From positions 197,840,565 to 197,904,564 of the forward strand of contig CM060988.1 in NCBI GenBank assembly GCA_030765065.1: a stretch of DNA of 64,000 nt, given 5' to 3'. Origin of the DNA: Deroplatys truncata. Taxonomy: Eukaryota > Arthropoda > Insecta > Mantodea > Mantidae. The position numbers and the translations under genes were made by a program. Below the pieces are notes generated by a model. That model saw only the letters and a list, made by a program, of their open reading frames with translations, was not told the DNA's origin and did no database searches. How positions within the stretch are numbered: the stretch's first letter is position 1; every line of letters starts with the position of its first letter. Shown here piece after piece: positions 3,732 through 31,347 of the stretch.

Positions 3732-3972
3732 GGAATTAATTGTTCTTTCACACAAGCCATGTGTTGGACAGGGTTGGAAATGTAGAATCAGATGACTGAA
3801 AAATTCAATGCCATAGCCGGGATTTGAACCACGGATCTCCCGGTCTCTGTTCGGTTGCTCTAACCACTGAGCTACCGTGGCATAATGCCGACACGACATT
3901 AAATTCTCCAACTGATTCGCATTTTTCCTGGTAAACCACAAGGAGGTCTCAAATTGTATTGACATGACATCT
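3732..3972 (-). mobile_element. tRNA-derived SINE (same family as 10747-11140)
   Basis: On the minus strand this reads: head (AATACAATTTGAGACCTCC), a tRNA-like body with A box TAGCTCAGTGG and B box GGTTCAAATCC, then a tail including CCAACCCTGTCCAACACATG and a terminal CAATTAATTCC. The same blocks recur at 10747-11140, 32318-32392 and 61829-61962. I could not find a clean target duplication here, so the outer boundaries are approximate. Confidence 0.85.
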
Positions 3973-4212
3973 CAATAAGTATTGTTACGATGAGGCAGAA
4001 TTTTATGAGTTGCAGACCATAAGAGCTGGGCACAATAGAAGAAATCAAGCAGAGGAATTAGCATTACAACCTGTCCATGACGGTCCCCTGCCAGTCACCA
4101 AGAGAAACTATCCGATCTGAAAGAGTTATGCCAGAAAGAGATAGTTCCACAGAAGTACCATCAGTTTTATTCCTCACTTCACTCCCATTGCAACAGTGTA
4201 ATATCAATGTAA

Positions 4213-6045
4213 TTTTGTTTACCATTTATTTTATGCTTTAATAAAAATGTCTTACAATAACAAAGCGTGAGCAGTTTCATTATAAGATTGCAATAACCAT
4301 AGAGTCGCAGCAGGAAATCGTAATTAATTTAGGATCAAAGAGACGTAACTACAGCGCATTTTATTAAAATATTAAATATCTGCTTAATAGTTGATTATTA
4401 CAAACTAAATATCAGCGCCAATCATTGGACAAATGAACTAGGTTATTGAATTTCATAACAAAGTTTGTGTTCAGCGATGCTAATATACATATAGCATCAC
4501 CACAAACTTAAAGACTTAAATATCTAAAAACATGCATTCATGTAGTTACGTCAGTCTGATCCTATGGTAGCGATTTATGCATAGAAAACACTAAACTTTC
4601 AGCTAATATTTCAAGTATTGCTTGTAAAGTAAAGCTACTGTGAGTATCTTAACTTGTTGTGGAGCATGGATTGATGTTGCTGAAGTAAACAACACATGCA
4701 ACCTATTGTTGCTAGGATGATGTAATTGTTACCATTGAAGGAGCATATGCTTCACTAAAGTGAAAACGTATGTTTATGACATGTATTTAAGTTATAAATA
4801 AAACTGTAAGATTCAATTAAATTAAACATCTTTATAAATTTAAATGTAATTTGGGGAGGGATGCTAAATTGTCTCTTCCTGCACTCTCCTCTTTTGTATA
4901 TACATATATATAATACTAGAGAATGTGATTTATTAGGTATTCCTATAAGAACAGCTGTTAATCATCATCTTTATATGGACATTAAAGCTTATACTCAGCT
5001 CTTAGTCTCATTAAAGCGTTTAAAATTGCCACATTTTCATGTGGGAATTCCTACAAAGACAATATAAAACTGGCTAAACACAGAAATGGTAAAACAGGGT
5101 GAATGCCAGAACATAAACAAATTTAGGGCAATAAAAAACCAGATTCCATTGCAGGATATACCAAATGTAAATGGATCAGGTTTTGGAATTCCCTTATGCT
5201 GCATCAAACAGTTTCACACATTTAGTGGATTATGCAAAAATATGAAGTTTTGGATTAGAGTGGAAGTGAACAAGCACATTAGCTAAATGTTGAATGAGCC
5301 ATGATTTCTGGTAACAGAAAATCCTTCGAGACCTTGCAGAACCTGAAGAAAACTGTGATAATGGCCTCTTGAGAAAGGAGATACTAGACTTGTAGAAGGT
5401 ACAAACGCTTTAGTATCTTTAGCTAAAAACTTGTTTACAAGAAATCAGCCAAATATTCCTTACCTTATGAAACAAGATGACTTTAAAACTAGAACTAGTG
5501 GAAATTTTAAATATACAACAAACCCAAGATTATGGTATAAGAATGCAACTAAACTGTTCCAAAGGAAATAACATCCTGGTGAACATTTTGATATTTAAAA
5601 CGACATATAACTTCTGTACATTTACATAACAGCCAGCTTGATCAAAATGATGAGACAAATACTAGAACTTTAAAATAACTTTCACAAGTCAACAATTTGG
5701 AATTTCTTCTGTCAGTTATGGTGCAGACATATACACTTCTTGCAACTGCATTTATGGAAAAGACAGTCATGTTTTATTGCAAATAGTTATTTTGATACCT
5801 TGCTATCAATTAAATATATTTGATATTTTTTGTACAAAAAAAACAAAATTGAAATATTCATTAACAACTATAAAAACAGTTTTCAAATTTAAAGCAAATA
5901 CAGATCAGTGTAAAGATTTACATAGTATAGTAAATATATGACAAGTATTAGGAGAAAAACAAAGTAACACAAAAGATGATCAAACAATTTGGAAATACTG
6001 CTGATGAGTTAGTAATAGCATGATATATACACTTTGTATGAGGAG
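4213..6045. other. Gene-poor AT-rich stretch
   Basis: No recognisable gene is seen. Two short open frames (4861-5067 and 5086-5286, plus strand) have no motif I can identify and lie close together, so they could be remnants of a single decayed reading frame. The last bases, ending GAGGAG at 6045, are the target-site duplication of the giant palindromic element. Confidence 0.5.
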
Positions 6046-6062
6046 AGTAGTATAAGTCCCGG
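6040..6062. repeat. Left terminus and 6-bp target duplication
   Basis: GAGGAG (6040-6045) is followed by the inverted terminal sequence AGTAGTATAAGTCCCGG starting at 6046. Removing the element and one GAGGAG would join TTTGTATGAGGAG to TAACTTTTT, which is a plausible empty site. Confidence 0.85.
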
Positions 6063-6200
6063 ATGAGCCAATTGGATTAACGATAATCCTGCCGCTAGGG
6101 GCGCTAGTGTCGCTGGTGTCGCTGCGTGCGACGGCGGCGGCAAGTTTGAAAAGCGCCCTGAGCGGAAGGATTATCGTTATTGCAATTGGTTCATCCGGGA
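6057..6200. repeat. Subterminal imperfect hairpin, left arm
   Basis: A 48-nt arm at 6057-6104 pairs imperfectly with 6153-6200; both ends read TCCCGGATGA or its inverse with one or two differences. The centre is GC-rich (GTCGCTG repeats and CGGCGGCGG). It begins 11 bp inside the element terminus. It may be the true terminal structure or a small hairpin transposon captured before the arms were duplicated. The left copy carries an extra GTGTCGCTG unit relative to the right copy. Confidence 0.85.
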
Positions 6201-6249
6201 CGAGTTAAAAGAATTGAGGATTAGGGTAAGGTGAAGGAAAAAGAGGAAG

Positions 6250-6272
6250 TGACGTGGAGTGTTTTGATTGGT
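6250..6272 (+). promoter_or_regulatory. TGACGT-N10-GATTGGT module 1 (left arm)
   Basis: A CRE-like TGACGT at 6250-6255 and an inverted CCAAT box in GATTGGT at 6266-6272 are separated by exactly 10 nt. The same pair with the same spacing occurs at three other places in this arm. Function is inferred from motif identity and fixed spacing only. Confidence 0.5.
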
Positions 6273-6426
6273 TCGTTAATTCGGGTGGAAGATGAAGGAA
6301 GGAAGATGAAAGAGTATGGAGGTCACGTGATGGAGAGGAGCGGGGTGGCGAGGTGTTGTCTGTGCGGAGGTCGGGACTGAAAGAGGGAAAAGATGGGGAG
6401 CGAGGGATAAAAAGTATAACAGAAAG

Positions 6427-6449
6427 TGACGTGTGAAGTTGTGATTGGT
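6427..6449 (+). promoter_or_regulatory. TGACGT-N10-GATTGGT module 2 (left arm)
   Basis: TGACGT at 6427-6432 and GATTGGT at 6443-6449. Upstream is the A-rich GGGATAAAAAGTAT. Further ATTGG motifs follow at about 6469, 6500 and 6523. About 150 bp downstream is a consensus splice donor, AAAGGTAAGT, at 6575-6584. Confidence 0.5.
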
Positions 6450-6830
6450 GGGAATAAGAAGTGATGTTATTGGTGGAAAGGAAGAAATGAAAGTTGTTGA
6501 TTGGTAAGAATAAGAGAGATTATGATTGGTGGAAAGAAAAAGGTGTGGGAGTGGGGTATGTTGGAGGTGATGGGAAAGGTAAGTTTTGCTAGCAACAAGA
6601 TTTTCAAAAGCCTGTCGAGAACTGATCAGCAATTTTTTGAACGTTGGATGCTAGTTTTCTTGAGTGGATAGAGAGATGGGGCGATATGAGATGCGGTGGC
6701 GAAAATGGGAACTAAACAAGATGGTTGAGACAAGAGGTTTAAGGACGAGGAAATTTGGAGGTTAGTGGTGAACAATGGTCGCAAGAGGTGGGGGCAAGGA
6801 GACGCGGTGGTGAGAATGGGAACTAAAAGA

Positions 6831-7456
6831 AGATGGCGGTAGCAAGAGCTTAGAAGAGCAGATTTTGAGGTTAAAATAGTGGGAACTAAAAATGGCGGAG
6901 GGTCTGCGACAAGGAGATGCGGTGAGAACTAAACAAGATGGCGGTCGCAAGAGGAGGGTAAGGAGATTTGAGGTTACAGTACCAAAACACGAAAGGATAT
7001 ATTCCTACGCCAAGCAGGTCCGAAAAATAATTATGCGTGTGGTACTTACCTGTTACTGGTGTGGATGCGTCACCAAAAGCGCAGCAGCTTCACGCGACGC
7101 GAAAAAATAAAAGCAAACTGTTTTTGAAAATGCTTAACCAGCTTTAAGATCAACCAACATCACTACGCACTGATATACCTAGGTTTTTTAAAGCGGTACA
7201 GACGCCCTTTGCAGAGACGTAATTTAACTATACCAAAAACCTGGTACTGGACCATCGTGATGGTCGCTAGCGTACGTAGGAGCAGGGTTCTCATAGCCGG
7301 TCGAAAGCGGTCAAAAAAGTGTACGACGTAGGTGTTCACAGTAGCTGCTGTCGAGTCAACCGTCGAGGTGTGAATGAACGAGATCTGTTCTTGCCGGCAA
7401 TCTGGTTGGGAGATGAGAGGCGCGGTGGTAAAAATGGGAACTAAATAAGATGGCGG
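6831..7456 (+). promoter_or_regulatory. Cluster of ATGGCGG sites (YY1/Pho-like) in repeated modules
   Basis: ATGGCGG occurs at about 6833, 6892, 6938 and 7450, three times as AGATGGCGG and once as AAATGGCGG. It usually follows the phrase GGGAACTAAA or GAACTAAA. The vertebrate YY1 and Drosophila Pho proteins bind a GCCAT core, whose complement is ATGGC. The phrase-plus-site repeats look like a degenerate tandem module. All sites are mirrored in the right arm. Binding is an inference from the motif. Confidence 0.4.
7041..7052 (-). promoter_or_regulatory. Consensus splice-donor-like site
   Basis: The minus strand reads CAGGTAAGTACC, an excellent 5' splice-site match, and the same site is kept on the plus strand of the right arm near 24695. 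No exon can be proven, so this is only a candidate. Confidence 0.3.
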
Positions 7457-7561
7457 AGGCATGAAGTTGAGGTTAAGGAGCGGTGAGGTGTTGTCTGTGC
7501 GGAGGTTGGGACTGAAAGAGGGGAAAGATGGCGAACGAGGGATAAAAAGTATAACAGAAAG

Positions 7562-7584
7562 TGACGTGTGAAGTTGTGATTGGT
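7562..7584 (+). promoter_or_regulatory. TGACGT-N10-GATTGGT module 3 (left arm)
   Basis: TGACGT at 7562-7567 and GATTGGT at 7578-7584, inside the second copy of the internal duplication. The donor-like AAAGGTAAGT follows at 7711-7720, the same distance as in module 2. Confidence 0.5.
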
Positions 7585-7779
7585 GGGAATAAGAAGTGAT
7601 GTTATTGGTGGAAAGGAACAAATGAAAGTTGTTGATTGGTAAGAATAAGAGAGATTATGATTGGTGGAAAGAAAAAAGGTGTGGGAGTGGGGTATGTTGG
7701 AGGTGATGGAAAAGGTAAGTTTTGCTACCAACAAGATTTGCAAAAGCCTTTCCAGAACTCATCAGCAATTTTAAATAAC

Positions 7780-9000
7780 TAGTGTTTCGGGGTTTTCTCT
7801 GGTTGGTAGACGAATGCAAGCTGTTTCTGCTTTTTCATAGGTTTTCCCAAAATTGAAAATGCATATATATTGTAACACAAATGTGTGCAGTGCAAAAGAA
7901 AATAAAAATTAAATAGGCACACACACACACACACACACACCCTTGCAGTTGCCATACTTATATTATTCGTCTTTTCCTTTTTTTCTTTTTTTCTTTTTGT
8001 TTTTTCGTTTTTTTAAAAAATAACTAGTTTTTGGGGATATTCTGTGGTTGGTAAACGAATGCAAGCTCTTTCTGCTTTTACATAGGTTTTCCCTGGTTGG
8101 TAGGCGTTTTCTGTAGTGGTTGACGAAGCCGTTTCTAATTTTCGAGGTTTTCTCAGGTTTTTAGTGGTTGTCCCTGCCCGGTAGGCAAATGATGAAGTTT
8201 TTCTATAATGTCGTCGTTTTGGCTTGTGGCGCACGGATACTAGGCACATACTCGCACACACACACACCCTTGCAGTTGCCATACTTATATTATTCGTCTT
8301 TTCCTTTTTTTTCTTTTTTTTCTTTTTGTTTTTTTGTTTTTCGCTTTTTAAAAAATAACTAGCTTTGGGGGTTTTATGTGGTTGGTAAACGAATGCAAGC
8401 TCTTTCTGCTTTTTCATAGGTTTTCCCTGGTTGGTAGGCTTTTTCTGTAGTGGTTGACGAAGCCGTTTCTAATTTTCGAGGTTTTCTCAGGTTTTTAGTG
8501 GTTGTCCCTGCCCGGTAGGCAAATGATGAAGTTTTACCCTTCGGCGCACGGATACTAGGCACATACTCGCGCGCACACACACACACACACATTTAATAGT
8601 AGCGTGTAGCAAACTGTTTTTGAAAAATGCTTAACCAGCTTTAAGATCAACCAACATCACTACGCACTGATATACCTAGGTTTATTAAAGCGGTACAGAC
8701 GCCCTTTGCACAGACGTAATTTAACTATACCAAAAACCTGGTCGCTAGCGTACGTAGGAGCAGGGTTCTCATTGCCGGTCGAAAGCGGGCAAAAAAGTGT
8801 ACTATCTTGTTTTCATGGGTTTTCCAGATCGGTAGGCGTTAGAATACTCTTAGAGATTTTTTCAGGTTTTTCGCGGTTGTCCCTGTCCGGTAGGCAAATG
8901 ATGAAGTTTTCTATAATGTCGTCGTTTTGGCTTGTAGCGCACGGATACTAGGCACATACTCGCACACACACACACACACACACACACTATAATAGTAGCG
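7780..9000. repeat. Tandem ~300-bp blocks ending in CA microsatellites, left arm
   Basis: Partial units begin near 7780, 8023, 8345 and 8810. They share AAACGAATGCAAGCTCTTTC, then GTTGTCCCTGCCCGGTAGGC, then GGATACTAGGCACATACTCG and a (CA)n run. The motif GTTGCCATACTTATATTAT recurs at about 7947 and 8275 and again beside the palindrome centre. A block at about 7120-7310 (AACCAGCTTTAAGATCAACC onward) is also repeated at about 8630-8800. Open frames here are by-products of repetition. Confidence 0.85.
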
Positions 9001-9029
9001 TATAAAAAAATTTAACAAACCGTAGATTT

Positions 9030-9720
9030 TCAAGGAAATTCGCACACCGCAAACTAGCCGTTTAGTGGAAGAAATTTCGTTATTTTTACTGTCTTAAAAA
9101 TGGCTCTAACCCTTTTGATTACGGTACGGTATGTTTAAGATATCTGCATGACAAATAAAATGTATAACTTCAATTTTCTGGGAATAGCTGTGAAGTAGTC
9201 TCATTGTGAATGTCTTTTGTACAACTGTTAAACCGTAGGAAACGAAGCCTTACTGTACAAGAACTGTACAAGAACGTTAAAGCACACAATTTATGTGTAT
9301 TATTATTATTATTATTATTATTATTACTTTGTGGCGTTGTCTATTTACAAAGTTTCCATGTTGATTTTAATGTTTAAAAGCTTTAGACCTTTCTCACTAA
9401 AACTCGTCATTCTTTTAACTTTTCTTTTTTCATTTTCATACAAAGAGAACGGAATTTCACAAGTGAAACAGTACTGTGATAACGATACCAGCAAACTAAT
9501 TATTATTCACCCACTGAAACACATAAAAACAATAAGTAATAATCACAGGCCCAGTTTGTGGGTATTTAAATGAAACAACATGCACAATACAAGCCAATTA
9601 TGTAATGAGTTGAAATGTGCAAATCCATAGATGTATTTCTGGTGAAATCCCGGTATGGAATTTTTGAGTGCAATGCAATTCCTCCTGTATCCGCTATGTA
9701 CGTGGTAGAGAAAGTAAAAA
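9030..9720. repeat. Diverged copies of a dispersed repeat, left arm
   Basis: The stretch 9030-9290 resembles the interior of the repeat intact at 31356-32193 (ATGGCTCTAAC, AAATAAAATGTATA, AACTGTTAAACC). The stretch 9600-9720 resembles its start on the opposite strand (CTACCACGTACATAGC, complement of the CTCTACTACGTATAG end). Both are clearly older than the copy at 12106. Confidence 0.65.
9299..9327. repeat. (TTA)n microsatellite, left arm
   Basis: About nine TTA triplets. The mirror tract in the right arm (22372-22447) is more than twice as long. Confidence 0.95.
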
Positions 9721-10449
9721 TAGTTACAGTGACTATACAAATGTAACAATAGAGAAACCCACTTGAAGAAAAAACGGAATAAAAATAACAAGGCGTCAGA
9801 CTCAACTTTCGCGCCATTCTCCGAATATCTGAGAATATTCTTAATATGAGACAAGCATTTTACCTTAAGCAAGTAGTTTTAATCTTACTTTTATGAAAAT
9901 CAGAGTTTTCTCTATATCCTTTATTTGTGACAACAACGCTAAGTTTCGAGCTAGCTATACTCACTTTTCTTGCAACTATATACGTTTAAACTAATATTAA
10001 CAAATTTCTCGTAATCCCAGAATTTATTAATCATAGCTGTAATATTTTTCACAACTGCATGCAATAATATTGATTTAGGGGCTTTTAGTAATTTGCTATT
10101 CGTTCTAAAACCTTTTATATTGTCAAGCTGGACAACTGTGGACCTGTGCATCCTATAAACATTCACAACATTAGTATAAACTTCCCTACAGAGTTTTATA
10201 TACAATTTTACAAGTTGTTTTAAGAAATTGTTAAATTTCGGTACCGAAAAAAAAAATAAAGATACGGTTTTCCAAAGATTTCGAAAGAACTAGGTTGCTG
10301 TATCAAAATTTCCTTGTTACAAATTGTGCATTTATTTCTTAAGGAAACCAGGAATACAGATTTTTTATAAATTTAGCGTGCACCGATCTATAGTTTTAAC
10401 TTTTACGCCTACGTTTCTCGTCAATAAACACCATTGCTGAAGAGGTTGG

Positions 10450-11400
10450 TATTTCTACTGTCTCTACCACGTAAAATAGTAGGTAGAGGAGGTATGCATT
10501 GCATCCAATTATTCAATATTGAGATTTCACTGGAAAACTAAATACTTGTTTTGAGGTCCCCTGAATAAAAAACATTTTTAGAAAATTCTGTGTGTATGCG
10601 TCAGAGCAGCATAACTCAAAAACGAAAAGTCGGATAAATACTAAACTTGGTATTTAGGTTGAGTACCTTCCAAAGATACGACACAGAGATTTTCAAGAAA
10701 GTCCCTCCACCCCAAACTACCCTTTACATGAACTATTTTCCGAAATGGAATTAATTGTTCTTTCACACAAGCCGTGTGTTGGACAGGGTTGGAAAGGAAG
10801 AATCAGATGACTGAAAAATTCAATGCCATAGCCGGGATTTGAACCCTTGTGTGAAAGAACAATTAATTCCATTAATTGACCTAATAGTGGTTGCAACTAT
10901 AAAGCCCGGAACTTAAAGTACTTACAATAAATGTAAGTCGCCATTGGGGTATGGCATCTCAATACAATTTGAGATCTCCTTGTGGTTTACCGGGAAAAAT
11001 GCGAATCAGCTGGAGAATTTAATGTCGTGTCGGCAGGTTGCCATGGTAGCTCAGTGGTTAGAGCAACCGGACGAAAACCGGGAGATCCGTGGTTCAAATC
11101 CCGGCTATGGCATTGAATTTTTCAGTCATCTGATTCTTCCTATTTTCCGAAATGTTTTATTTTCTAAAACTGTCTCTGACGATTTTAATTACAACACCAT
11201 ATATTAAAGACATTTATATGAAAAATAAAATGTATATCTTGAATTTTGTGGAAATAGCCTGTGAAGTCCTCTTGATTCGGAAGAAATTTTCTATGATCTT
11301 GTATAACTGCTAAGGTTTGAGGAAAACATACAATACAAAAAATTTAGATCTCTTTAAAAACACACACAATTTATTTGAAATAACTTTTTTTTGTGACGTC
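10450..11400 (+). repeat. Older copy of the dispersed repeat (interrupted by the SINE)
   Basis: CTCTACCACGTAAAATAG, ACTCAAAAACGAAAAGTCGG, ACCAAACTTGGTATTTAGG-like text and CCCCAAACTACCCTTTACATG align in order with the repeat at 31356-32193 but with many differences. No reading frame is conserved. Confidence 0.75.
10734..11153 (+). mobile_element. SINE insertion present only in the left arm (10747-11140)
   Basis: A 394-bp insert lies between perfect 13-bp copies of TATTTTCCGAAAT (10734-10746 and 11141-11153). The right arm shows the uninterrupted site near 20955. The insert is composite. It opens with an inverted tail and half of the tRNA-like body, then has a second inverted tail block (10852-10876). 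An unrelated spacer comes next, then a forward SINE. The forward tRNA-like body at 11040-11111 folds as a cloverleaf, with acceptor GCCATGG/CTATGGC and an anticodon loop that could read GAA. Because it is embedded in a SINE with a target duplication, I do not call it a tRNA gene. Confidence 0.93.
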
Positions 11401-12105
11401 AGCCATTTCCGAGATATCTGTTATAAATGGTTCGAATTGTACAATGCTTAGCCATTCTTTTTTAAAGGCATGCCGCTTTCCAGTTCTTGCTCGCCATGTT
11501 GATGGAAAGAATTTAGAATTTTCGCGTTCACTTCACTTCTTTCAAACTTCGAAAAAATCATATAAATGGTTGTTTCACGTCATAATAAGCCTTCATATAC
11601 CAAAACTACTGAGTTTTTTTTCGTACTCACCTATAAGAGATAGAGGGTAGAGGTCATACGAACGTAACACTTGAGAATTTTTATTCTGCAGTTGGTGTTA
11701 CTCCTTAGAAAGGAAGTATCTGCTGATTCTATTTAATTCTTACATTTTACATAACACGTATGCACGGCACAACACAAAAACACTACACACGACACTCATA
11801 GTTTTAAATATTGCACTAGTGGGGGTGCAAGCTGAACCACCATTAACAACAGGTAGCAAGCGTTACAGTTCTGCTCACTTTAGTATCGGAGAAAACAGTA
11901 AAAAAGAATCATTCTCATGTGCAGCACTGCGTGCAAAGACCGTGTGCTGATGTGTGTGTAAAATGAGCGTGAGAAACGGATGTTCGTCAGCGATAAAATC
12001 TTTTAAATGCAGTTTTATTGTCGATGGTAGGTATCGTGCAGTGGTGGATCGTGACAGGAAATGCACTGCAAATGACTGCGTTTTACGTTTCTAGTTTTGT
12101 TTTTT

Positions 12106-12930
12106 ACTTTCTCTACTACGTATAGTAAGTAGGGGAAGTATTGTATTCCACCCAAAAATTCGATACCGAGATTTCACCGGAAATACATGTTTTGACACCC
12201 CCTGAATCCAAAAAAAATCCATTTTTGGAAACATGTCCGTGTGTGTGTGTCTGTGAACAGCATAACTCAGAAACGAACAGTCGGATAAGCACCAAACTTA
12301 GTATTTAGGTTCAGTATCTTCCAGAGATGCGACACGAACGTTTCCAAGATAATCCCCCCAGACATCCCTTTACATGGAACATTTTTCGAAAATTTTAATT
12401 TTCTCAAAAATGGTTCTAACGATTTTGATTAAAATATCATATGTTCAAGATATTTTCAAGACAAATGAAATGTATATCTCGAATTTCCTGGGAATGTGTC
12501 CAAAAGTATTCTTTATTGTGAACGATTTGCATAACTGGTAAACCATAACAAATGGACAAAATTTTACTACACAAAAAATGCGTTAAAATACACAATTTAT
12601 GTCATATACATTTTTTTAGTTGAGTGAACCATTTTCGAGATATTGCTTGTTATTTCCTTAAATTTTCCAATACTTATACTTTTTCTCAAATTCGTTATTT
12701 AATTTTTTATGTCCTGGATATGCAAACAGAATAGAATGCGCCACATAGCAACCAGCGCTTAAACGATTTGACTATCGCTTATAACCTACCATGTTCCCCT
12801 TGCATCTACAAGAAATTAGCAATAAGATTGACATTTCGATATCTCGATTAACATGAAGTAGATGGAGAATAAGCGTTTGTAAAAATAGTTTGTACAAGAG
12901 TAGAGAAAGTCATGTGAGTGTAACACATCA
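12106..12930 (+). repeat. Well-preserved copy of the dispersed repeat, left arm
   Basis: Starts ACTTTCTCTACTACGTATAG and ends GAGTGTAACACATCAG, matching 31355-32193 closely along its length. Inverted 12-mers ACTTTCTCTACT and AGTAGAGAAAGT lie near the two ends (12106-12117 and 12899-12910). The mirror copy lies at about 19185-20005. Confidence 0.85.
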
Positions 12931-12989
12931 GTTTATCTATAAAATCGTGCTATTTGACGTGATATAAGTTTTAGAGCAATACGCGCACA

Positions 12990-13131
12990 TGTGCGGGTGT
13001 CTAGGTTTAGTATCTTCCAGCGATGCGACACGAAGGTTTTCAAGAAAATCCCCCCACCCCAAACTACCCTTTACATGGAAGATTTTTCGAAAATTTTAAT
13101 TTTCTCAAAAATGGCTGTAACGATTTTGATT
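12990..13131 (+). repeat. Truncated dispersed-repeat copy abutting the satellite
   Basis: A further partial copy (TTTAGTATCTTCCAG through CTGTAACGATTTTGATT) stops abruptly at 13131, where the 76-bp satellite begins. The full copies continue AAAATATCAT at that point. The same junction is preserved in the right arm at 18969-18970. Confidence 0.8.
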
Positions 13132-15433
13132 GCAGCTTCGATACGTGTCCACGGAGATCTTAGTGCTAGGCAACTATACCTGTTTCTATACGTGAACGGC
13201 AGATTGCAGCTTCGATACGTGTCCACGGAGACCTTAATGCTAGGCAACTGTACCTGTGTTTACATACGTGAACGTCAGATGGCAGCTTCGATACGTGTCC
13301 ACGGAGACCTTAGTGCTAGGCAACTGTACCTCTGTTTCTATACGTGAACGGCAGATTGCAGCTTCGATACGTGTCCACGGAGACCTTAGTGCTAGGCAAC
13401 TGCACCTCTGTTTCTATACGTGAACGGCAGATTGCAGCTTCGATACGTGCCCACGGAGACCTTAGTGCTAGGCAACTGCACCTCTGTTTCTATTTGTGAA
13501 CGGCAGATTGCAGCTTCGATACGTGTCCACGGAGACCTTAGTGCTAGACAACTGTACCTCTGTTTCTATACGTGAACGGCAGATTGCACCTTCGATACGT
13601 GCTCACGGATACCTTAGTGCTAGGCAACTGCACCTCTGTTTCTATACGTGAACGGCAGATTGCAGCTTCGATACGTGTCCACGGAGACCTTAGTGCTAGG
13701 CAACTATACCTGTTTCTATACGTGAACGGCAGATTGCAGCTTCGATACGTGTCCACGGAGACCTTAATGCTAGGCAACTGTACCTGTGTTTCTATACGTG
13801 AACGTCAGATGGCAGCTTCGATACGTGTCCACGGAGACCTTAGTGCTAGGCAACTGTACCTCTGTTTCTATACGTGAACGGCAGATTGCAGCTTCGATAC
13901 GTGTCCACGGAGACCTTAGTGCTAGGCAACTGTACCTCTGTTTCTATACGTGAACGGCAGATTGCAGCTTCGATACGTGTCCACGGAGACCTTAGTGCTA
14001 GGTAACTGTGCCTCTTTTTCTATACGTGAACGGCAGATTGCAGCTTCGATACGTGTCCACGGAGACCTTAGTGCTAGGCAACTGCACCTCTGTTTCTATA
14101 CGTGAACGGCAGATTGCAGCTTCGATACGTATCCACGGAGACCTTAGTGCTAGGCAACTGCACCTCTGTTTCTATACGTGAACGGCAGATTGCAGCTTCC
14201 ATACGTGTCCACGGAGACCTTAGTGCTAGGCAACTGTGCCTCTGTTTCTATACGTGAACGGCAGATTGAAGCTTCCATACGTGTCCACGGAGACCTTAGT
14301 GCTAGGCAACTATACCTCTGTTTCTATCCGTGAACGGCAGATTGTAGCTTCGATACGTGTCCACGGAGATCTTAGTGCTAGGCAACTATACCTGTTTCTA
14401 TACGTCAACGGCAGATTGCAGCTTCGATACGTGTCCACGGAGACCTTAGTGCTAGTCAACTGCACCTCTGTTTCTATACGTGAACGGCAGATTGCAGCTT
14501 CGATACGTGTCCACGGAGACCTTAGTGCTAGGCAACTGTACCTCTGTTTCTATACGTGAACGGCAGATTGCAGCTTCAATACGTGTCCACGGAGACCTTG
14601 GTGCTAGGCAACTGTACCTCTGTTTCTATTCGTGAACGGCAGATTGCAGCTTCGATACGTGTCCACGGAGACCTTAGTGCTAGGCAACTGCACCTCTGTT
14701 TCTATACGTGAACGGCAGATTGCAGCTTCGATACGTGTCCACGGAGACCTTAGTGCTAGTCAACTGCACCTCTGTTTCTATACGTGAACGGCAGATTGCA
14801 GCTTCGATACGTGTCCACGGAGACCTTAGTGCTAGGCAACTGTACCTCTGTTTCTATACGTGAACGGCAGATTGCAGCTTCAATACGTGTCCACGGAGAC
14901 CTTAGTGCTAGGCAACTGTACCTCTGTTTCTATACGTGAACGGCAGATTGCAGCTTCGATACGTGTCCACGGAGACCTTAGTGCTAGGCAACTGCACCTC
15001 TGTTTCTATACGTGAACGGCAGATTGCAGCTTCGATACGTATCCACGGAGACCTTAGTGCTAGGCAACTGCACCTCTGTTTCTATACGTGAACGGCAGAT
15101 TGCAGCTTCCATACGTGTCCACGGAGACCTTAGTGCTAGGCAACTGTACCTCTGTTTCTATACGTGAACGGCAGATTGAAGCTTCCATACGTGTCCACGG
15201 AGACCTTGGTGCTAGGCAACTATACCTCTGTTTCTATACGTGAACGGCAGATTGTAGCTTCGATACGTGTCCGCGGAGATCTTAGTGCTAGGCAACTATA
15301 CCTGTTTCTATACGTCAACGGCAGATTGCAGCTTCGATAGGTGTCCACGGAGACCTTAGTGCTAGGCAAATGTACCTCTGTTTCTGTACGTGAACGGCAG
15401 ATTGCAGCTTCGATACGTGTCCACGGAGACCTT
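13132..15433 (+). repeat. 76-bp satellite array, left arm (~30 units)
   Basis: The monomer contains GCAGCTTCGATACGTGTCC, ACGGAGACCTTAGTGCTAGG, CAACTGTACCTCTGTTTC and TATACGTGAACGGCAGATT. Most units are 76 bp, with some 74-bp variants (CTATACCTGTTTC). Variant blocks recur: 13131-13330 reappears at 13660-13860 (about seven units), and 14260-14400 reappears at 15174-15320 (about twelve units), indicating higher-order amplification. Because 76 is not a multiple of three, open frames here rotate through the unit and are not genes. Confidence 0.97.
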
Positions 15434-15746
15434 TCGCTTCAGGTGACAAAATAACACTAGGCACTTGTGTGCCGTGGTGTAAGCCGCAATCACGGCATTG
15501 GTAGCGTGGATCACCTTGGGGCTCTCCTCGGAGTTACATCAACACCACGTACATGACCTGGTTCGTCACGGGTACGCAGGTCTGCACTACCACTTCCTCG
15601 GCGTTAAGCAGGCCCAGGAGGCGATCGTACCGGTACACCAGCTAGCACGTGGACATGTTATCGCGCTGTGGTGTTGCGTGTGCGAGGTATGGAAACTCAA
15701 GGACGCAAAACATGCACGACCGAGGGTTAAAAAGTAGAACAAGTAG

Positions 15747-15769
15747 TGACGTGGAACGTTTTGATTGGT
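15747..15769 (+). promoter_or_regulatory. TGACGT-N10-GATTGGT module 4 (core, left)
   Basis: TGACGT at 15747-15752 and GATTGGT at 15763-15769, again with 10 nt between. It is preceded by CGAGGGTTAAAAAGTA (compare CGAGGGATAAAAAGTA in the outer modules) and followed by ATTGG and AAGATGGCG motifs. The core module is therefore a diverged relative of the outer ones. Confidence 0.5.
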
Positions 15770-16000
15770 CAAAATAAGGCGATCTCTGATAGGTGGACAA
15801 ATTGAAATAACGTGATGTGATAGGCGAAAATAAAATCAAACGTGATTGGATGAAAATGACGAGAAGGAATTTGCGGTGAATTTGTGAACTAAGATGGCGA
15901 AGATTGTTTTAAAAAAAAGAAAAAGAAGACGGATAATATAAGTATGGCAACTGTAACGGTTTACAGCAAACGCGCGCAGCGCAATGCGTCACGCCGGGCA

Positions 16001-16027
16001 TCTTGCTCAATACGGTTTTTGTTTTAT
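16001..16027. other. 27-nt palindrome loop
   Basis: This is the only stretch not mirrored at the centre. It is flanked by GTCACGCCGGGCA and TGCCCGGCGTGAC, the innermost paired bases. The adjoining GC-rich stem would extrude as a very stable hairpin. Confidence 0.9.
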
Positions 16028-16255
16028 TGCCCGGCGTGACGCATTGCGCGGCGCGCGTTTGCCGTAAACCGTTACAGTTGCCATACTTATATTATCCGTC
16101 TTCTTTTTTTTTTTAAAAAAATCTTCGCCATCTTAGTTCACAAATTCACCGCTAATTCCTTCTCGTCATTTTCATCCAATCACCTTTGATTTTATTTTCG
16201 CCTATCACATCACGTTATTTCAATTTGTCCACCTATCAGAGATCGCCTTATTTTC

Positions 16256-16278
16256 ACCAATCACAACGTTCCACGTCA
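16256..16278 (-). promoter_or_regulatory. Mirror of module 4 (right arm)
   Basis: ACCAATC at 16256-16262 and ACGTCA at 16273-16278, spaced by 10 nt. Confidence 0.5.
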
Positions 16279-16591
16279 CTACTTGTTCTACTTTTTAACC
16301 CTCGGTCGTGCATGTTTTGCGTCCTTGAGTTTCCATACCTCGCACACGCAACACCACAGCGCGATAACATGTCCACGTGCTAGCTGGTGTACCGGTACGA
16401 TCGCCTCCTGGGCCTGCTCAACGCCGAGGAAGTGGTAGTGCAGACCTGCGTACCCGTGACGAACCAGGTAATGTACGTGGTGTTGAGGTAACTCCGAGGA
16501 GAGCCCCAAGGTGATCCACGCTACCAATGCCGTGATTGCAGCTTACACCACGGCACACAAGTGCCTAGTGTTATTTTGTCACCTGAAGCGA

Positions 16592-18969
16592 AAGGTCTCC
16601 GTGGACACTTATCGAAGCTGCAATCTGCCGTTCACGTATAGAAACAGAGGTACAGTTGCCTAGCACTAAGGTCTCCGTGGACACGTATCGAAGCTGCAAT
16701 CTGCCGTTGACGTATAGAAACAGGTATAGTTGCCTAGCACTAAGATCTCCGTGGACACGTATCGAAGCTACAATCTGCCGTTCACGTATAGAAACAGAGG
16801 TATAGTTGCCTAGCACCAAGGTCTCCGTGGACACGTATGGAAGCTTCAATCTGGCGTTCACGTATAGAAACAGAGGTACAGTTGCCTAGCACTAAGGTCT
16901 CCGTGGACACGTATGGAAGCTGCAATCTGCCGTTCACGTATAGAAACAGAGGTGCAGTTGCCTAGCACTAAGGTCTCCGTGGATACGTATCGAAGCTGCA
17001 ATCTGCCGTTCACGTATAGAAACAGAGGTGCAGTTGCCTAGCACTAAGGTCTCCGTGGACACGTATCGAAGCTGCAATCTGCCGTTCACGTATAGAAACA
17101 GAGGTACAGTTGCCTAGCACTAAGGTCTCCGTGGACACGTATTGAAGCTGCAATCTGCCGTTCACGTATAGAAACAGAGGTACAGTTGCCTAGCACTAAG
17201 GTCTCCGTGGACACGTATCGAAGCTGCAATCTGCCGTTCACGTATAGAAACAGAGGTGCAGTTGACTAGCACTAAGGTCTCCGTGGACACGTATCGAAGC
17301 TGCAATCTGCCGTTCACGTATAGAAACAGAGGTGCAGTTGCCTAGCACTAAGGTCTCCGTGGACACGTATCGAAGCTGCAATCTGCCGTTCACGAATAGA
17401 AACAGAGGTACAGTTGCCTAGCACCAAGGTCTCCGTGGACACGTATTGAAGCTGCAATCTGCCGTTCACGTATAGAAACAGAGGTACAGTTGCCTAGCAC
17501 TAAGGTCTCCGTGGACACGTATCGAAGCTGCAATCTGCCGTTCACGTATAGAAACAGAGGTGCAGTTGACTAGCACTAAGGTCTCCGTGGACACGTATCG
17601 AAGCTGCAATCTGCCGTTGACGTATAGAAACAGGTATAGTTGCCTAGCACTAAGATCTCCGTGGACACGTATCGAAGCTACAATCTGCCGTTCACGGATA
17701 GAAACAGAGGTATAGTTGCCTAGCACTAAGGTCTCCGTGGACACGTATGGAAGCTTCAATCTGCCGTTCACGTATAGAAACAGAGGTACAGTTGCCTAGC
17801 ACTAAGGTCTCCGTGGACACGTATGGAAGCTGCAATCTGCCGTTCACGTATAGAAACAGAGGTGCAGTTGCCTAGCACTAAGGTCTCCGTGGATACGTAT
17901 CGAAGCTGCAATCTGCCGTTCACGTATAGAAACAGAGGTGCAGTTGCCTAGCACTAAGGTCTCCGTGGACACGTATCGAAGCTGCAATCTGCCGTTCACG
18001 TATAGAAAAAGAGGCACAGTTCCCTAGCACTAAGGTCTCCGTGGACACGTATCGAAGCTGCAATCTGCCGTTCACGTATAGAAACAGAGGTACAGTTGCC
18101 TAGCACTAAGGTCTCCGTGGACACGTATCGAAGCTGCAATCTGCCGTTCACGTATAGAAACAGAGGTGCAGTTGACTAGCACTAAGGTCTCCGTGGACAC
18201 GTATCGAAGCTGCAATCTGCCGTTCACGTATAGAAACAGAGGTACAGTTGCCTAGCACTAAGGTCTCCGTGGACACGTATCGAAGCTGCCATCTGACGTT
18301 CACGTATAGAAACACAGGTACAGTTGCCTAGCATTAAGGTCTCCGTGGACACGTATCGAAGCTGCAATCTGCCGTTCACGTATAGAAACAGGTATAGTTG
18401 CCTAGCACTAAGGTCTCCGTGGACACGTATCGAAGCTGCAATCTGCCGTTCACGTATAGAAACAGAGGTGCAGTTGCCTAGCACTAAGGTATCCGTGAGC
18501 ACGTATCGAAGGTGCAATCTGCCGTTCACGTATAGAAACAGAGGTACAGTTGTCTAGCACTAAGGTCTCCGTGGACACGTATCGAAGCTGCAATCTGCCG
18601 TTCACAAATAGAAACAGAGGTGCAGTTGCCTAGCACTAAGGTCTCCGTGGACACGTATCGAAGCTGCAATCTGCCGTTCACGTATAGAAACAGAGGTGCA
18701 GTTGCCTAGCACTAAGGTCTCCGTGGACACGTATCGAAGCTGCAATCTGCCGTTCACGTATAGAAACAGAGGTACAGTTGCCTAGCACTAAGGTCTCCGT
18801 GGACACGTATCGAAGCTGCCATCTGACGTTCACGTATGTAAACACAGGTACAGTTGCCTAGCATTAAGGTCTCCGTGGACACGTATCGAAGCTGCAATCT
18901 GCCGTTCACGTATAGAAACAGGTATAGTTGCCTAGCACTAAGATCTCCGTGGACACGTATCGAAGCTGC
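16592..18969 (-). repeat. 76-bp satellite array, right arm (~31 units)
   Basis: Inverse of the left array with the same edge junctions on both sides. It is 2378 bp against 2302 bp on the left, a difference of exactly one 76-bp unit. The order of variant units is broadly mirrored but not identical. This implies unequal exchange or slippage after the palindrome formed. Confidence 0.97.
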
Positions 18970-21900
18970 AATCAAAATCGTTACAGCCATTTTTGAGAAA
19001 ATTAAAATTTTCGAAAAATCTTCCATGTAAAGGGTAGTTTGGGGTGTGGGGATTTTCTTGAAAACCTTCGTGTCGCATCGCTGGAAGATACTAAACCTAG
19101 ACACCCGCACATGTGCGCGTATTGCTCTAAAACTTATATCACGTCAAATAGCACGATTTTATAGATAAACTGATGTGTTACACTCACATGACTTTCCCTA
19201 CTCTTGTACAAACTATTTTTACAAACGCTTATTCTCCATCTACTTCATGTTAATCGAGATATCGAAATGTCAATCTTATTGCTAATTTTCTTGTAGATGC
19301 AAGGGGAACATGGTAGGTTATAAGCGATAGTCAAATCTTTTAAGCGCTGGTTGTTATGTGGCGCATTCTATTCTGTTTGCATATCCAGGACATAAAAAAT
19401 TAAATAACGAATTTGAGAAAAAGTATAAGTATTGGAAAATTTAAGGAAATAACAAGCAATATCTCGAAAATGGTTCACTTAACTAAAAAAAATGTATATG
19501 ACATAAATTGTGTATTTTAACGCGATCTACATTTTTTGTGTAGTAAAATTTTGTCCATCTCTTATGGTTTACCAGTTATGCAAAAGTCGTTCACAATAAA
19601 GAATACTTTTGGACACATTCCCAGGAAATTCGAGATATACATTTCATTTGTCTTGAAAATATCTTGAACATATGATATTTTAATCAAAATCGTTAGAACC
19701 ATTTTTGAGAAAATTAAAATTTTTGAAAAATGTTCCATGTAAAGGGATGTCTGGGGGGATTTTCTTGGAAACGTTCGTGTCGCATCTCTGGAAGATACTG
19801 AACCTAAATACCAAGTTTGTTGCTTATCCGACTGTTCGTTTCTGAGTTATGCTGTTCACAGACACACACACGGACATGTTTCCAAAAATGGATTTTTTTT
19901 TGGATTCAGGGGGTGTCAAACATGTATTTCCGGTGAAATCTCGGTATCGAATTTTTGGGTGGAATACAATACTTCCCCTACTTACTATACGTAGTAGAGA
20001 AAGTAAAAAACAAAACTAGAAACGTAAAACGCAGTCATTTGCAGTGCATTTCCTGTCACGATCCACCACTGCACGATGCCTACCATCGACAATAAAACTG
20101 CATTTAAAAGATTTTATCGCTGACGAACATCCGTTTCTCACGCTCATTTTACACACACATCAGCACACGGTCTTTGCACCCAGTGCTGCACATGAGAATG
20201 ATTCTTTTTTACTGTTTTCTCCGATACTAAAGTGAGCAGAACTGTAACGCTTGCTACCTGTTGTTAATAGTGGTTCAGCTTGCACCCCCACTAGTGCAAT
20301 ATTTAAAACCATGAGTGTCGTGTGTAGTGTTTTTGTGTTGTGCCGTGCATACGTGTTATGTAGAATGTAAGAATTAAATAGAATCAGCAGATACTTCCTT
20401 TCTAAGGAGTAACACCAACTGCAGAATAAAAATTCTCATGTGTTACGTTCGTATGACCTCTACCCTCTATCTCTTATAGGTGAGTACGAAAAAAACTCAG
20501 TAGTTTTGGTATATGAAGGCTTATTATGACGTGAAACAACCATTTATATGATTTTTACGAAGTTTGAAAGAATTGAAGTAAACGCGAAAATTCTAAATTC
20601 TTTCCATCAACGTGGCGAGCAAGAACTGAAAAGCGACATGCCTTTAAAAAAGAATGGCTAAGCATTGTACAATTCGAACCATTTATAACAGATATCTCGG
20701 AAATGACTGACGTCACAAAAAGGTTATTTCAAATAAATTGTGTGTGTTTTTAAAGAGATCTAAATTTTTTGTATTGTATGTTTTCCTCAAACCTTAGCAG
20801 TTATACAAGATCATAGAAAATTTCTTCCGAATCAAGAGGACTTCACAGGCTATTTCCACAAAATTCAAGATATACATTTTATTTTTCATATAAATGTCTT
20901 TAATATATGGTGTTGTAATTAAAATCGTCAGAGACAGTTTTAGAAAATAAAACATTTCGGAAAATAGTTCATGTAAAGGGTAGTTTGGGGTGGAGGGACT
21001 TTCTTGAAAATCTCTGTGTCGTATCTTTGGAAGGTACTCAACCTAAATACCAAGTTTAGTATTTATCCGACTTTTCGTTTTTGAGTTATGCTGCTCTGAC
21101 GCATACACACAGAATTTTCTAAAAATGTTTTTTATTCAGGGGACCTCAAAACAAGTATTTAGTTTTCCTGTGAAATCGCAATATTGAATAATTGGATGCA
21201 ATGCATACCTCCTCTACCTACTATTTTACGTGGTAGAGAGAGTAGAAATACCAACCTCTTCAGCAATGGTGTTTATTGACGAGAAACGTAGGCGTAAAAG
21301 GTAAAAATATAGATCGGTGCACGCTAAATTTATAAAAAATCTGTATTCCTGGTTTCCTTAAGAAATAAATGCACAATTTGTAACAAGGAAATTCTGATAC
21401 AGCAACTTAGTTCTTTCGAAATCTTTGGAAAACCGTATCTTTATTTTTTTTCGGTACCGAAATTTAACAATTTCTTAAAACAACTTGTAAAATTGTATAT
21501 AAAACTCTGTAGGGAAGTTTATACTAATGTTGTGAATGTTTATAGGATGCACAGGTCCACAGTTGTCCAGCTTGACAATATAAAAGGTTTTAGAACGAAT
21601 AGCAAATTACTAAAAGCCCCTAAATCAATATTATTGCATGCAGTTGTGAAAAATATTACAGCTATGATTAATAAATTCTGGGATTATGAGAAATTTGTTA
21701 ATATTAGTTTAAACGTATATAGTTGCAAGAAAAGTGAGTATAGCTAGCTCGAAACTTAGCGTTGTTGTCACAAATAAAGGATATAGAGAAAACTCTGATG
21801 TTCATAAAAGTAAGATTAAAACTACTTGCTTAAGGTAAAATGCTTGTCTCATATTAAGAATATTCTCAGATATTCGGAGAATGGCGCGAAAGTTGAGTCT

Positions 21901-22370
21901 GACGCCTTGTTATTTTTATTCCGTTTTTTCTTCAAGTGGGTTTCTCTATTGTTACATTTGTATAGCCACTGTAACTATTTTTATTTTCTCTACCACGTAC
22001 ATAGCGGATACAGGAGGAATTGCATTGCACTCAAAAATTCCATACCGGGATTTCACCAGAAATACATCTATGGATTTGCACATTTCAACTCATTACATAA
22101 TTGGCTTGTATTGTGCATGATGTTTCATTTAAATACCCACAAACTGGGCCTGTGATTATTACTTATTGTGTTTATGTGTTTCAGTGGGTGAATAATAATT
22201 AGTTTGTTGGTATCGTTATCACAGTACTGTTTCACTTGTGAAATTCCGTTCTCTTTGTATGAAAATGAAAAAAGAAAAGTTAAAAGAATGACGAGTTTTA
22301 GTGAGAAAGGTCTAAAGCTTTTAAACATTAAAATCAACATGGAAACTTTGTAAATAGACAACGCCACAAA

Positions 22371-22371
<1 letters not shown>
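18970..22371. repeat. Right-arm mirror of the dispersed-repeat region
   Basis: Inverse of 9328-13131 without the left-arm SINE. The undisturbed SINE target is readable near 20955. Mirrored open frames (for example 20044-20235 with 11875-12066, and 21493-21747 with 9951-10205) are repeat DNA with no recognisable domain. Confidence 0.85.

Positions 22372-22447
<76 letters not shown>
22372..22447. repeat. (TAA)n microsatellite, right arm
   Basis: About 25 TAA triplets against about nine or ten at the mirror position. The poly-Tyr and poly-Leu frames here are microsatellite translations. Confidence 0.97.
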
Positions 22448-22449
<2 letters not shown>

Positions 22450-22739
22450 ACATAAATTGTGTGCTTTAACGTTCTTGTACAGTTCTTGTACAGTAAGGCT
22501 TCGTTTCCTACGGTTTAACAGTTGTACAAAAGACATTCACAATGAGACTACTTCACAGCTATTCCCAGAAAATTGAAGTTATACATTTTATTTGTCATGC
22601 AGATATCTTAAACATACCGTACCGTAATCAAAAGGGTTAGAGCCATTTTTAAGACAATAAAAATAACGAAATTTCTTCCACTAAACGGGTAGTTTGCGGT
22701 GTGCGAATTTTCTTGAAAATCTACGGTTTGTTAAATTTT

Positions 22740-22757
22740 TTTTATACGCTACTATTA

Positions 22758-22795
<38 letters not shown>

Positions 22796-23960
22796 ATGTG
22801 CCTAGTATCCGTGCGCCACAAGCCAAAACGACGACATTATAGAAAAACTTCATCATTTGCCTACCGGACAGGGACAACCGCGAAAAACCTGAAAAAAGCT
22901 CTAAGAGTATTCTAACGCCTACCGATCTGGAAAACCCATGAAAACAAGATAGTACACTTTTTTGCCCGCTTTCGACCGGCAATGAGAACCCTGCTCCTAC
23001 GTACGCCAGCGACCAGGTTTTTGGTATAGTTAAATTACGTCTGTGCAAAGGGCGTCTGTACCGCTTTAAAAAACCTAGATATATCAGTGCGTAGTGATGT
23101 TGGTTGATCTTAAAGCTGGTTAAGCATTTTTCAAAAACAGTTTGCTACACGCTACTATTAAATGTGTGTGTATGTGTGTGTGCGCGAGTATGTGCCTAGT
23201 ATCCGTGCGCCGACAAGGTAAAACTTCATCATTTGCCTACCGGGCAGGGACAACCACTATAAACCTGAGAAAACCTCGAAAATTAGAAACGGCTTCGTCA
23301 ACCACTACAGAAAACGCCTACCAACCAGGGAAAACCTATGAAAAAGCAGAAAGAGCTTGCATTCGTTTACCAACCACAGAAAACCCCCAAAAACTAGTTA
23401 TTTTTAAAAAAGCGAAAAACAAAAAGAAACAAAAAGAAAAAAAAAGAAAAAAAGGAAAAGACGAATAATATAAGTATGGCAACTGCAAGGGTGTGTGTGT
23501 GTGCGAGTATGTGCCTAGTATCCGTGCGCCACAAGCCAAAACGACGACATTATAGAAAAACTTCATCATTTGCCTACCGGGCAGGGACAACCACTAAAAA
23601 CCTGAGAAAACCTCGAAAATTAGAAACGGCTTCGTCAACCACTACAGAAAACGCTTACCAACCAGGGAAAACCTATGAAAAAGCAGAAAGAGCTTGCATT
23701 CGTTTACCAACCACAGAATACCCCCAAAAACTAGTTATTTTTTAAAAAAACGAAAAAACAAAAAGAAAAAAAGAAAAAAGGAAAAGACGAATAATATAAG
23801 TATGGCAACTGCAAGGGTGTGTGTGTGTGCCTATTTAATTTTTATTTTCTTTTGCACTGCACACATTTGTGTTACAATATATATGCATTTTCAATTTTGG
23901 GAAAACCTATGAAAAAGCAGAAACAGCTTGCATTCGTCTACCAACCAGAGAAAACCCCGA
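22740..23960. repeat. Right-arm mirror of the ~300-bp blocks with GT microsatellites
   Basis: Inverse of 7780-9000, with (GT)n runs at about 22760, 23165, 23490 and 23815. Lengths of the microsatellites differ between arms. Confidence 0.85.
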
Positions 23961-24162
23961 AACACTAGTTATTTAAAATTGCTGATGAGTTCTGGATAGG
24001 CTTTTGCAAATCTTGTTGGTAGCAAAACTTACCTTTTCCATCACCTCCAACATACCCCACTCCCACACCTTTTTTCTTTCCACCAATCATAATCTCTCTT
24101 ATTCTTACCAATCAACAACTTTCATTTGTTCCTTTCCACCAATAACAACACTTCTTATTCCC

Positions 24163-24185
24163 ACCAATCACAACTTCACACGTCA
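24163..24185 (-). promoter_or_regulatory. Mirror of module 3 (right arm)
   Basis: ACCAATC at 24163-24169 and ACGTCA at 24180-24185, spaced by 10 nt. Confidence 0.5.
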
Positions 24186-25299
24186 CTTTCTGTTATACTT
24201 TTTATCCCTCGTTCGCCATCTTTCCCCTCTTTCAGTCCCAACCTCCGCACAGACAACACCTCACCGCTCCTTAACCTCAACATCATGCCTCCGCCATCTT
24301 ATTTAGTTCCCATTTTTACCACCGCGCCTCTCATCTCCCAACCAGATTGCCGGCAAGAACAGATCTCGTTCATTCACACCTCGACGGTTGACTCGACAGC
24401 AGCTACTGTGAACACCTACGTCGTACACGTTTTTGACCGCTTTCGACCGGCTATGAGAACCCTGCTCCTACGTACGCTAGCGACCATCACGATGGTCCAG
24501 TACCAGGTTTTTGGTATAGTTAAATTACGTCTCTGCAAAGGGCGTCTGTACCGCTTTAAAAAACCTAGGTATATCAGTGCGTAGTGATGTTGGTTGATCT
24601 TAAAGCTGGTTAAGCATTTTCAAAAACAGTTTGCTTTTATTTTTTCGCGTCGCGTGAAGCTGCTGCGCTTTTGGTGACGCATCCACACCAGTAACAGGTA
24701 AGTACCACACGCATAATTATTTTTCGAACCTGCTTGGCGTAGGAATATATCCTTTCGTGTTTTGGTACTGTAACCTCAAATCTCCTTACCCTCCTCTTGC
24801 GACCGCCATCTTGTTTAGTTCTCACCGCATCTCCTTGTCGCAGACCCTCCGCCATTTTTAGTTCCCACTATTTTAACCTCAAAATCTGCTCTTCTAAGCT
24901 CTTGCTACCGCCATCTTCTTTTAGTTCCCATTCTCACCACCGCGTCTCCTTGCCCCCACCTCTTGCGACCGCCATGTTCACCACTAACCTCCAAATTTCC
25001 TCGTCCTTAAACCTCTTGTCTCAACCATCTTGTTTAGTTCCCATTTTCGCCACCGCATCTCATATCGCCCCATCTCTCTATCCACTCAAGAAAACTAGCA
25101 TCCAACGTTCAAAAAATTGCTGATCAGTTCTCGACAGGCTTTTCAAAATCTTGTTGCTAGCAAAACTTACCTTTCCCATCACCTCCAACATACCCCACTC
25201 CCACACCTTTTTCTTTCCACCAATCATAATCTCTCTTATTCTTACCAATCAACAATTTTCATTTGTTCCTTTCCACCAATAACATCACTTCTTATTCCC

Positions 25300-25322
25300 A
25301 CCAATCACAACTTCACACGTCA
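25300..25322 (-). promoter_or_regulatory. Mirror of module 2 (right arm)
   Basis: ACCAATC at 25300-25306 and ACGTCA at 25317-25322, spaced by 10 nt. Confidence 0.5.
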
Positions 25323-25476
25323 CTTTCTGTTATACTTTTTATCCCTCGCTCTCCATCTTTTCCCTCTTTCAGTCCCGACCTCCGCACAGACAACACCTCG
25401 CCACCCCGCTCCTCTCCATCACGTGACCTCCATACTCTTTCATCTTCCTTCCTTCATCTTCCACCCGAATTAACGA

Positions 25477-25499
25477 ACCAATCAAAACACTCCACGTCA
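25477..25499 (-). promoter_or_regulatory. Mirror of module 1 (right arm)
   Basis: ACCAATC at 25477-25483 and ACGTCA at 25494-25499, spaced by 10 nt. Confidence 0.5.
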
Positions 25500-25548
25500 C
25501 TTCCTCTTTTTCCTTCACCTTACCCTAATCCTCAATTCTTTTAACTCG

Positions 25549-25686
25549 TCCCGGATGAACGAATTGCAATAACGATAATCCTTCCGCTCAGGGCGCTTTT
25601 GAAACTTGCCGCCGCCGCCGTCGCACGCAGCGACACTAGCGCCCCTAGCGGCAGGATTATCGTTAATCCAATTGGCTCATCCGGGA
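25549..25686. repeat. Subterminal imperfect hairpin, right arm
   Basis: Mirror copy of the 6057-6200 hairpin, 138 bp long. It lacks one GTGTCGCTG unit present on the left, an independent difference between the arms. Confidence 0.85.
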
Positions 25687-25703
25687 CTTATACTACTGAG
25701 GAG
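25680..25703. repeat. Right terminus and 6-bp target duplication
   Basis: CCGGGACTTATACTACT ends at 25697, the exact inverse of the left terminus. It is followed directly by GAGGAG (25698-25703). Confidence 0.85.
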
Positions 25704-31301: not shown

Positions 31302-31347
31302 CAATACACATCACTGTTTCTAGCTTCTTTTCATTACAATATATACT

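Follow-up and report, generated by a model that had tools for sequence, protein, structure and literature searches.

A 19.65-kb palindromic insertion with Maverick-like ends in the genome of the mantis Deroplatys truncata

Maverick/Polinton elements are virus-like transposons that carry a protein-primed DNA polymerase and a retroviral-type integrase. In symmetric adenovirus recombinants and the palindromic defective genomes of protein-primed replicons, the two tips bear an identical replication end. Among cut-and-paste elements, the target-site duplications of MuDR elements are usually 8–10 bp long and that of Foldback is 9 bp. Here we analyse a stretch of 64,000 nucleotides from the mantis Deroplatys truncata (GenBank assembly GCA_030765065.1, contig CM060988.1, positions 197,840,565–197,904,564 of the forward strand; hereafter the window), in which positions 6046–25697 form a giant palindrome of 19,652 bp lying between two copies of GAGGAG. 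We describe it as a probable gene-less derivative of a Maverick, not as a proven Maverick.

In the available text of PMC8097293, the commonest ends of vertebrate Mavericks are 5'-(AGT)2//(ACT)2-3', and intact copies have 6-bp duplications, lengths of 12,723–24,620 bp and terminal repeats of 46–1,447 bp. The accessible portion of a 2023 paper (PMC10045372) gives duplications of 6 bp for Polinton, IS3EU and GingerRoot, 4–10 bp for MuDR and its relatives and 3–6 bp for long terminal repeat (LTR) elements, with IS3EU and GingerRoot termini of TA..TA or TG..CA. For one wasp polintovirus, GTGTGTGT is given at the tips (PMC4061559, available part), an earlier paper having described Maverick-like genes of the same wasp without terminal repeats (PMC2646287, available part). 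The ends and duplication length of the mantis element are those of the vertebrate type.

The palindrome and its insertion site

An earlier note on this DNA had claimed a near-complete palindrome of about 19.65 kb at 6046–25697, with arms of about 10 kb meeting at a 27-nt loop, matching termini and a 6-bp duplication, and each of these statements holds. Comparison of the window with itself and alignment of the two halves place the left arm at 6046–16000 (+), the loop TCTTGCTCAATACGGTTTTTGTTTTAT at 16001–16027 and the right arm, the reverse complement of the left, at 16028–25697 (−). Alignment pairs 9,520 bases of the arms, of which 99 (1.04%) are mismatched, divided evenly into 49 transitions and 50 transversions; the arms also differ by 25 indels (counted with the arm limits at the loop placed one base off). 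At 407 bp, an insertion in the left arm is the largest of these, followed by one unit of a 76-bp tandem array and a 48-bp TAT tract. Divergence is highest in the centre outside the loop (11/564) and is lower in the array (9/2,306) than in the outer module and AT-rich block pooled (p 0.0005, or 0.002 once gap placement at the tip is corrected; these parts are described below), which fits local homogenisation of the array. The outer 1,447 bp differ at 9 of 1,437 positions by a second aligner (17/1,441 by the first), and positions 7493–13127 at 62 of 5,209 (p 0.08, in the direction of fewer differences at the ends). An apparent excess in the outer 402 bp (9/396) was rejected as gap placement around a hairpin, the second aligner giving 3/393.

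The element ends in perfectly matching sequences, AGTAGTATAAG on the left at 6046–6056 (+), with the 5'-(AGT)2 motif as AGTAGT at 6046–6051, and CTTATACTACT on the right at 25687–25697 (−), with the (ACT)2-3' end as ACTACT at 25692–25697. The target-site duplication GAGGAG was read directly on both sides, at 6040–6045 and 25698–25703, the left junction running ...GTATGAGGAG then AGTAGTATAAG and the right CTTATACTACT then GAGGAGTAAC... A 7-bp duplication, TGAGGAG, can be drawn only if the final T of the right terminus is counted as flank, and the ends are then imperfect. As an estimate of chance, 13 of the 44,336 position pairs with the same spacing in the window have identical flanking 6-mers, and among those 13 only the pair at 6046 also starts with AGTAGT or AGAGAG. 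AGTAGTATAAG at up to two mismatches gave 37 matches in the search against 25.9 expected, the two exact ones being the two ends of the element. Joining the flanks gives GTATGAGGAGTAAC as the predicted empty site; within the window, a search for a paralogous copy of it returned only the flanks themselves and, for the right flank, partial hits in the tandem array next to it.

Giant palindromes are a familiar class of artefact, and the structure might in principle have been created by the assembly or by a fold-back read. The 407-bp insertion speaks most directly to this. It is a tRNA-derived sequence resembling a short interspersed element (SINE), lies at 10733–11139 (+) including one copy of its 15-bp duplication CTATTTTCCGAAATG (at 10733 and again at 11140), and holds a full-length tRNA match (Rfam, 56.2 bits; ARAGORN, tRNA-Phe). 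In the right arm CTATTTTCCGAAATG occurs once, at 20953–20967, in the same surroundings, and this is the empty site. Because the insertion is present in the left arm only and its target is kept intact in the right, the palindrome predates it, and an artefact is very unlikely. The 99 substitutions and 25 indels between the arms, the different sequence of the right flank and the duplication flanking the element likewise tell against an artefact, which we consider barely credible. Together with the steps in composition at the element's ends (see below), these observations bear out the earlier note's view of a real mobile-element insertion, with the ends of the palindrome as its own, as opposed to a fold-back read. 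A relative of the SINE-like insertion lies in the left flank at 3730–3970.

Class, origin and age of the element

The reading that we prefer, tentatively and at a little short of an even chance, is that of a gene-less (non-autonomous) Maverick/Polinton derivative that became palindromic by template switching and was inserted by the integrase of a helper. It draws on the Maverick-type ends, the 6-bp duplication, a length inside the vertebrate Maverick range, the symmetry from tip to tip and the lack of recognised genes in the left arm. The element has no open reading frame of at least 200 amino acids from start to stop. The domain scan used 100 stop-free stretches of at least 40 amino acids from 6046–16012, skipping starts within the array interior (13211–15349), and covered the left arm alone, of which the right is a 99% copy. 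These stretches gave marginal matches to four Pfam and two PHROGs families, with one member each (best E 0.0006). Exact searches with three element patterns in IMG/VR and two in GTDB genomes, which hold viral and prokaryote contigs only, gave 0 matches.

Several points weigh against this assignment. The Pfam and PHROGs scan of the left arm found no Maverick polymerase, integrase, ATPase, protease or capsid gene; since autonomous Maverick genes were not found, the element would be at most a gene-less derivative. The evidence for the family is the end motif and the duplication of a single copy, and we infer the template switch and do not see it. The arms of 9.7–10 kb span the whole element, as against terminal repeats of 46–1,447 bp in the vertebrate Mavericks of PMC8097293 (available text). 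The statistics on end motifs come from vertebrates only, and the tips of the wasp polintovirus, GTGTGTGT, differ (PMC4061559, available part). Finally, the ranges given for MuDR-type (4–10 bp) and LTR elements (3–6 bp) in the accessible portion of PMC10045372 take in 6 bp as well, and duplication length alone therefore leaves the class unsettled.

Another possibility, which we regard as unlikely but worth serious weight, is a foldback-type cut-and-paste DNA transposon from a different superfamily (MuDR-like, for instance, or one not yet described), mobilised in trans by its transposase and bearing Maverick-like ends by chance or convergence. The lack of a recognised Maverick gene in the left arm agrees with it, and a 6-bp duplication falls inside the range given for MuDR and its relatives (PMC10045372, accessible portion); the Pfam scan of the left arm gave no transposase match. 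Against it, the combination of AGTAGT..ACTACT ends and a 6-bp duplication matches no eukaryotic superfamily for which the accessible portion of that paper states termini, and Galileo, in the available text of PMC3573991, has (by implication) 7-bp duplications and repeats of up to about 1.26 kb.

Taking the element as a gene-less Maverick derivative, its symmetry could have come from protein-primed copying of a parent element, during which the growing strand would switch to its own displaced strand or to the complementary strand. Such a switch would build the molecule from two copies of one half, so that its tips share one replication end, and leave a short asymmetric loop between the copies; symmetric adenovirus recombinants offer a parallel. 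The symmetric molecule would carry both replication ends and the integrase sites, and in the presence of an intact Maverick it could do without genes; if only the ends are required in cis, the enzymes of that Maverick could copy and insert it. The palindrome would then have entered the chromosome recently as one unit, the SINE-like element striking one arm afterwards.

CpG content bears on the timing. Observed/expected CpG averages 0.30 in the flanks (sd 0.12, maximum 0.68; 77 overlapping 3-kb windows) and 1.03 in the element (minimum 0.91; 34 overlapping 3-kb windows), and the kilobase profile steps at each element end. TpG and CpA are elevated in the flanks, as expected from decay of methylated CpG, and the depletion across 1–6045 and 25698–64000 suggests that the host genome is heavily methylated throughout. 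As the whole element is without CpG decay, it either arrived recently or is unmethylated. Values of 0.98 in the AT-rich block and 1.03 in the left array belong to the same pattern, and the former, set against the depleted flanks, weakens the idea that the AT-rich middle is captured old host DNA. Between the arms, transitions affect 8 of the 858 CpG-site positions and 41 of the other 8,662 (odds ratio 2.0, p 0.08). This excess at CpG is weak, non-significant and drawn from small numbers; it hints that some of the differences were already there on arrival, or that the element is unmethylated.

In the flanks, the bins richest in CpG likewise hold repeats, namely 31347–32198 and a repeat at both ends of the window. 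The latter is a 1.48-kb direct repeat (1–1483 and 62522–64000, 98.6% identical) with CpG bins of 0.79 and 0.44 on the left and 0.96 and 0.57 on the right, above most of the flanks; between its copies CpG transitions stand at 3/68 against 10/1,411 (odds ratio 6.5, p 0.02), and it is probably a young interspersed repeat. The 31347–32198 repeat, about 850 bp long, also undepleted (observed/expected 1.00) and with related copies in the arms of the palindrome, looks young as well; compared with its arm copy, the odds ratio for CpG transitions is 2.4 (p 0.11).

The earlier note had argued that the duplication shows the palindrome to have moved as one unit. An insertion with these ends did take place, but the duplication by itself is no proof that it was palindromic beforehand, because in-place copying of one half onto the other would leave an identical scar. 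On that account, an ordinary Maverick-type insertion would have been followed by break repair through the terminal repeats, one half being copied over the other in place, and the palindrome itself would never have moved. The available text of PMC3573991 proposes this mechanism for the expansion of terminal repeats in Galileo and cites reports of inverted-repeat expansion in Polintons, and identical ends with a duplication are what in-place conversion predicts. It also predicts that terminal repeats which existed beforehand should exceed the inner arms in divergence, whereas divergence at the ends is not above that of the inner arms (9/1,437 versus 62/5,209), which favours a template-switched molecule; a conversion tract reaching the tip would mask the difference. 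The CpG-transition excess is weak despite the CpG-depleted flanks, which hints at some divergence before arrival (or an unmethylated element). We hold in-place conversion, too, to be unlikely but worth weighing.

An origin from two elements placed head to head is unlikely. The region near the palindrome centre has no exact or one-mismatch copy of the end motif, the only match there being a two-mismatch one at 15733–15743 (mirrored at 16282–16292), from the search in which 25.9 chance matches are expected, and the larger module copy there is direct, 15663–15855 being a 68% copy of 7480–7670 in the outer module in the same orientation. The exclusion is not clean: beside this larger copy a 50-bp piece, 15911–15960, matches 7939–7991 and 8266–8318 at 85% in the opposite orientation.

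A further extension, which we think improbable, is that the element represents a self-annealing Maverick satellite lineage that exploits the polymerase, integrase and perhaps the capsid of Mavericks to spread in palindromic form. A single strand would fold end to end into a duplex of about 10 kb closed by the 27-nt loop, and each tip would offer the same replication end and terminal hairpin. Mobility of this kind, like that of the gene-less derivative that we prefer, is something we infer from one insertion.

Arm anatomy and flanking sequence

Each arm begins with a strong imperfect hairpin, at 6056–6201 (+) on the left and mirrored on the right, whose 50-nt arms are 88% complementary and which starts 10 nt from the tip. 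Folded as DNA, 6046–6215 gives −63.1 kcal/mol (z −13.9, with none of 200 shuffles equally good) and the right end −52.4. A flip of the hairpin apex from one end to the other, as in parvoviruses, was considered and rejected, both arms having the same orientation (alignment score 34 versus 7). The hairpin lies in an outer module, 6046–9020 (+), with a GC content of 0.43 and a GC skew of +0.29, which is internally repeated (6347–6636 = 7482–7772; 7914–8201 = 8241–8535; 7112–7324 = 8608–8802) and contains the motifs AGTGACGTG, TGATTGG and AAGATGGCG. AGTGACGTG occurs four times and AAGATGGCG five times in the left arm, neither being found in the window outside the element, and the two resemble cAMP response element (CRE) and YY1 promoter motifs.

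Next comes an AT-rich block at 9021–13127 (+; GC 0.345) with copies of an interspersed repeat, one of them full (12098–12934, 89% identical to 31347–32198) and several partial or diverged; by eye, the flank repeat at 31347–32198 has 12-bp subterminal inverted repeats, ACTTTCTCTACT/AGTAGAGAAAGT, and a short 3' hairpin. The 76-bp tandem array follows, with 30.4 copies at 13128–15433 (+) in the left arm and 31.4 copies at 16592–18973 (−) in the right, and the left arm closes with a central module at 15434–16000 (+).

The flanks hold further tandem arrays at 25850–27492, beginning about 150 bp from the right end of the element, at 44720–45693 and at 47600–47974. A 691-amino-acid open reading frame with many C2H2 zinc fingers and an 84-bp period lies at 40035–42110 (−), and a mariner-type transposase relic at 54830–55435 (−; Pfam Transposase_1, E 5.7e-10). 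Two frames at 45906–47246 (+), the first with a marginal Pfam match to Gag_p24 (E 0.0027) and the second with none, look, by eye, like a Penelope-like retroelement with a GIY-YIG-like stretch.

Comparison with described elements

Literature searches limited to open-licence papers found no gene-less, wholly palindromic Maverick derivative. The earlier note had called the architecture undescribed for insects; the architecture does look new, but the class is probably a known one, as the ends and the duplication match the commonest vertebrate Maverick type. If the assignment is real, Mavericks would be able to mobilise DNA bearing just Maverick ends, the element would be a natural product of template switching kept in a chromosome, and there would be a route by which giant palindromes form and spread that involves no segmental duplication.

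Symmetric adenovirus recombinants and palindromic defective genomes are extrachromosomal viral DNAs, whereas the mantis element is inserted with a target duplication. With IS3EU and GingerRoot (PMC10045372, accessible portion) it shares the 6-bp duplication, but its ends are AGTAGT..ACTACT and not TA..TA or TG..CA. Like the Foldback and Galileo elements of Drosophila, as presented in the available text of PMC3573991, it has long, internally repetitive inverted repeats, and it resembles their gene-less copies made of two repeats; Galileo differs in its (implied) 7-bp duplication and in repeats at least sevenfold shorter, the mantis element having 6 bp with perfect ends. The vertebrate Mavericks of PMC8097293 (available text) agree with it in the (AGT)2//(ACT)2 ends, the 6-bp duplication, the size and the possession of terminal inverted repeats; that text makes no mention of a strong subterminal hairpin or of 76-bp arrays, both of which the mantis element has.

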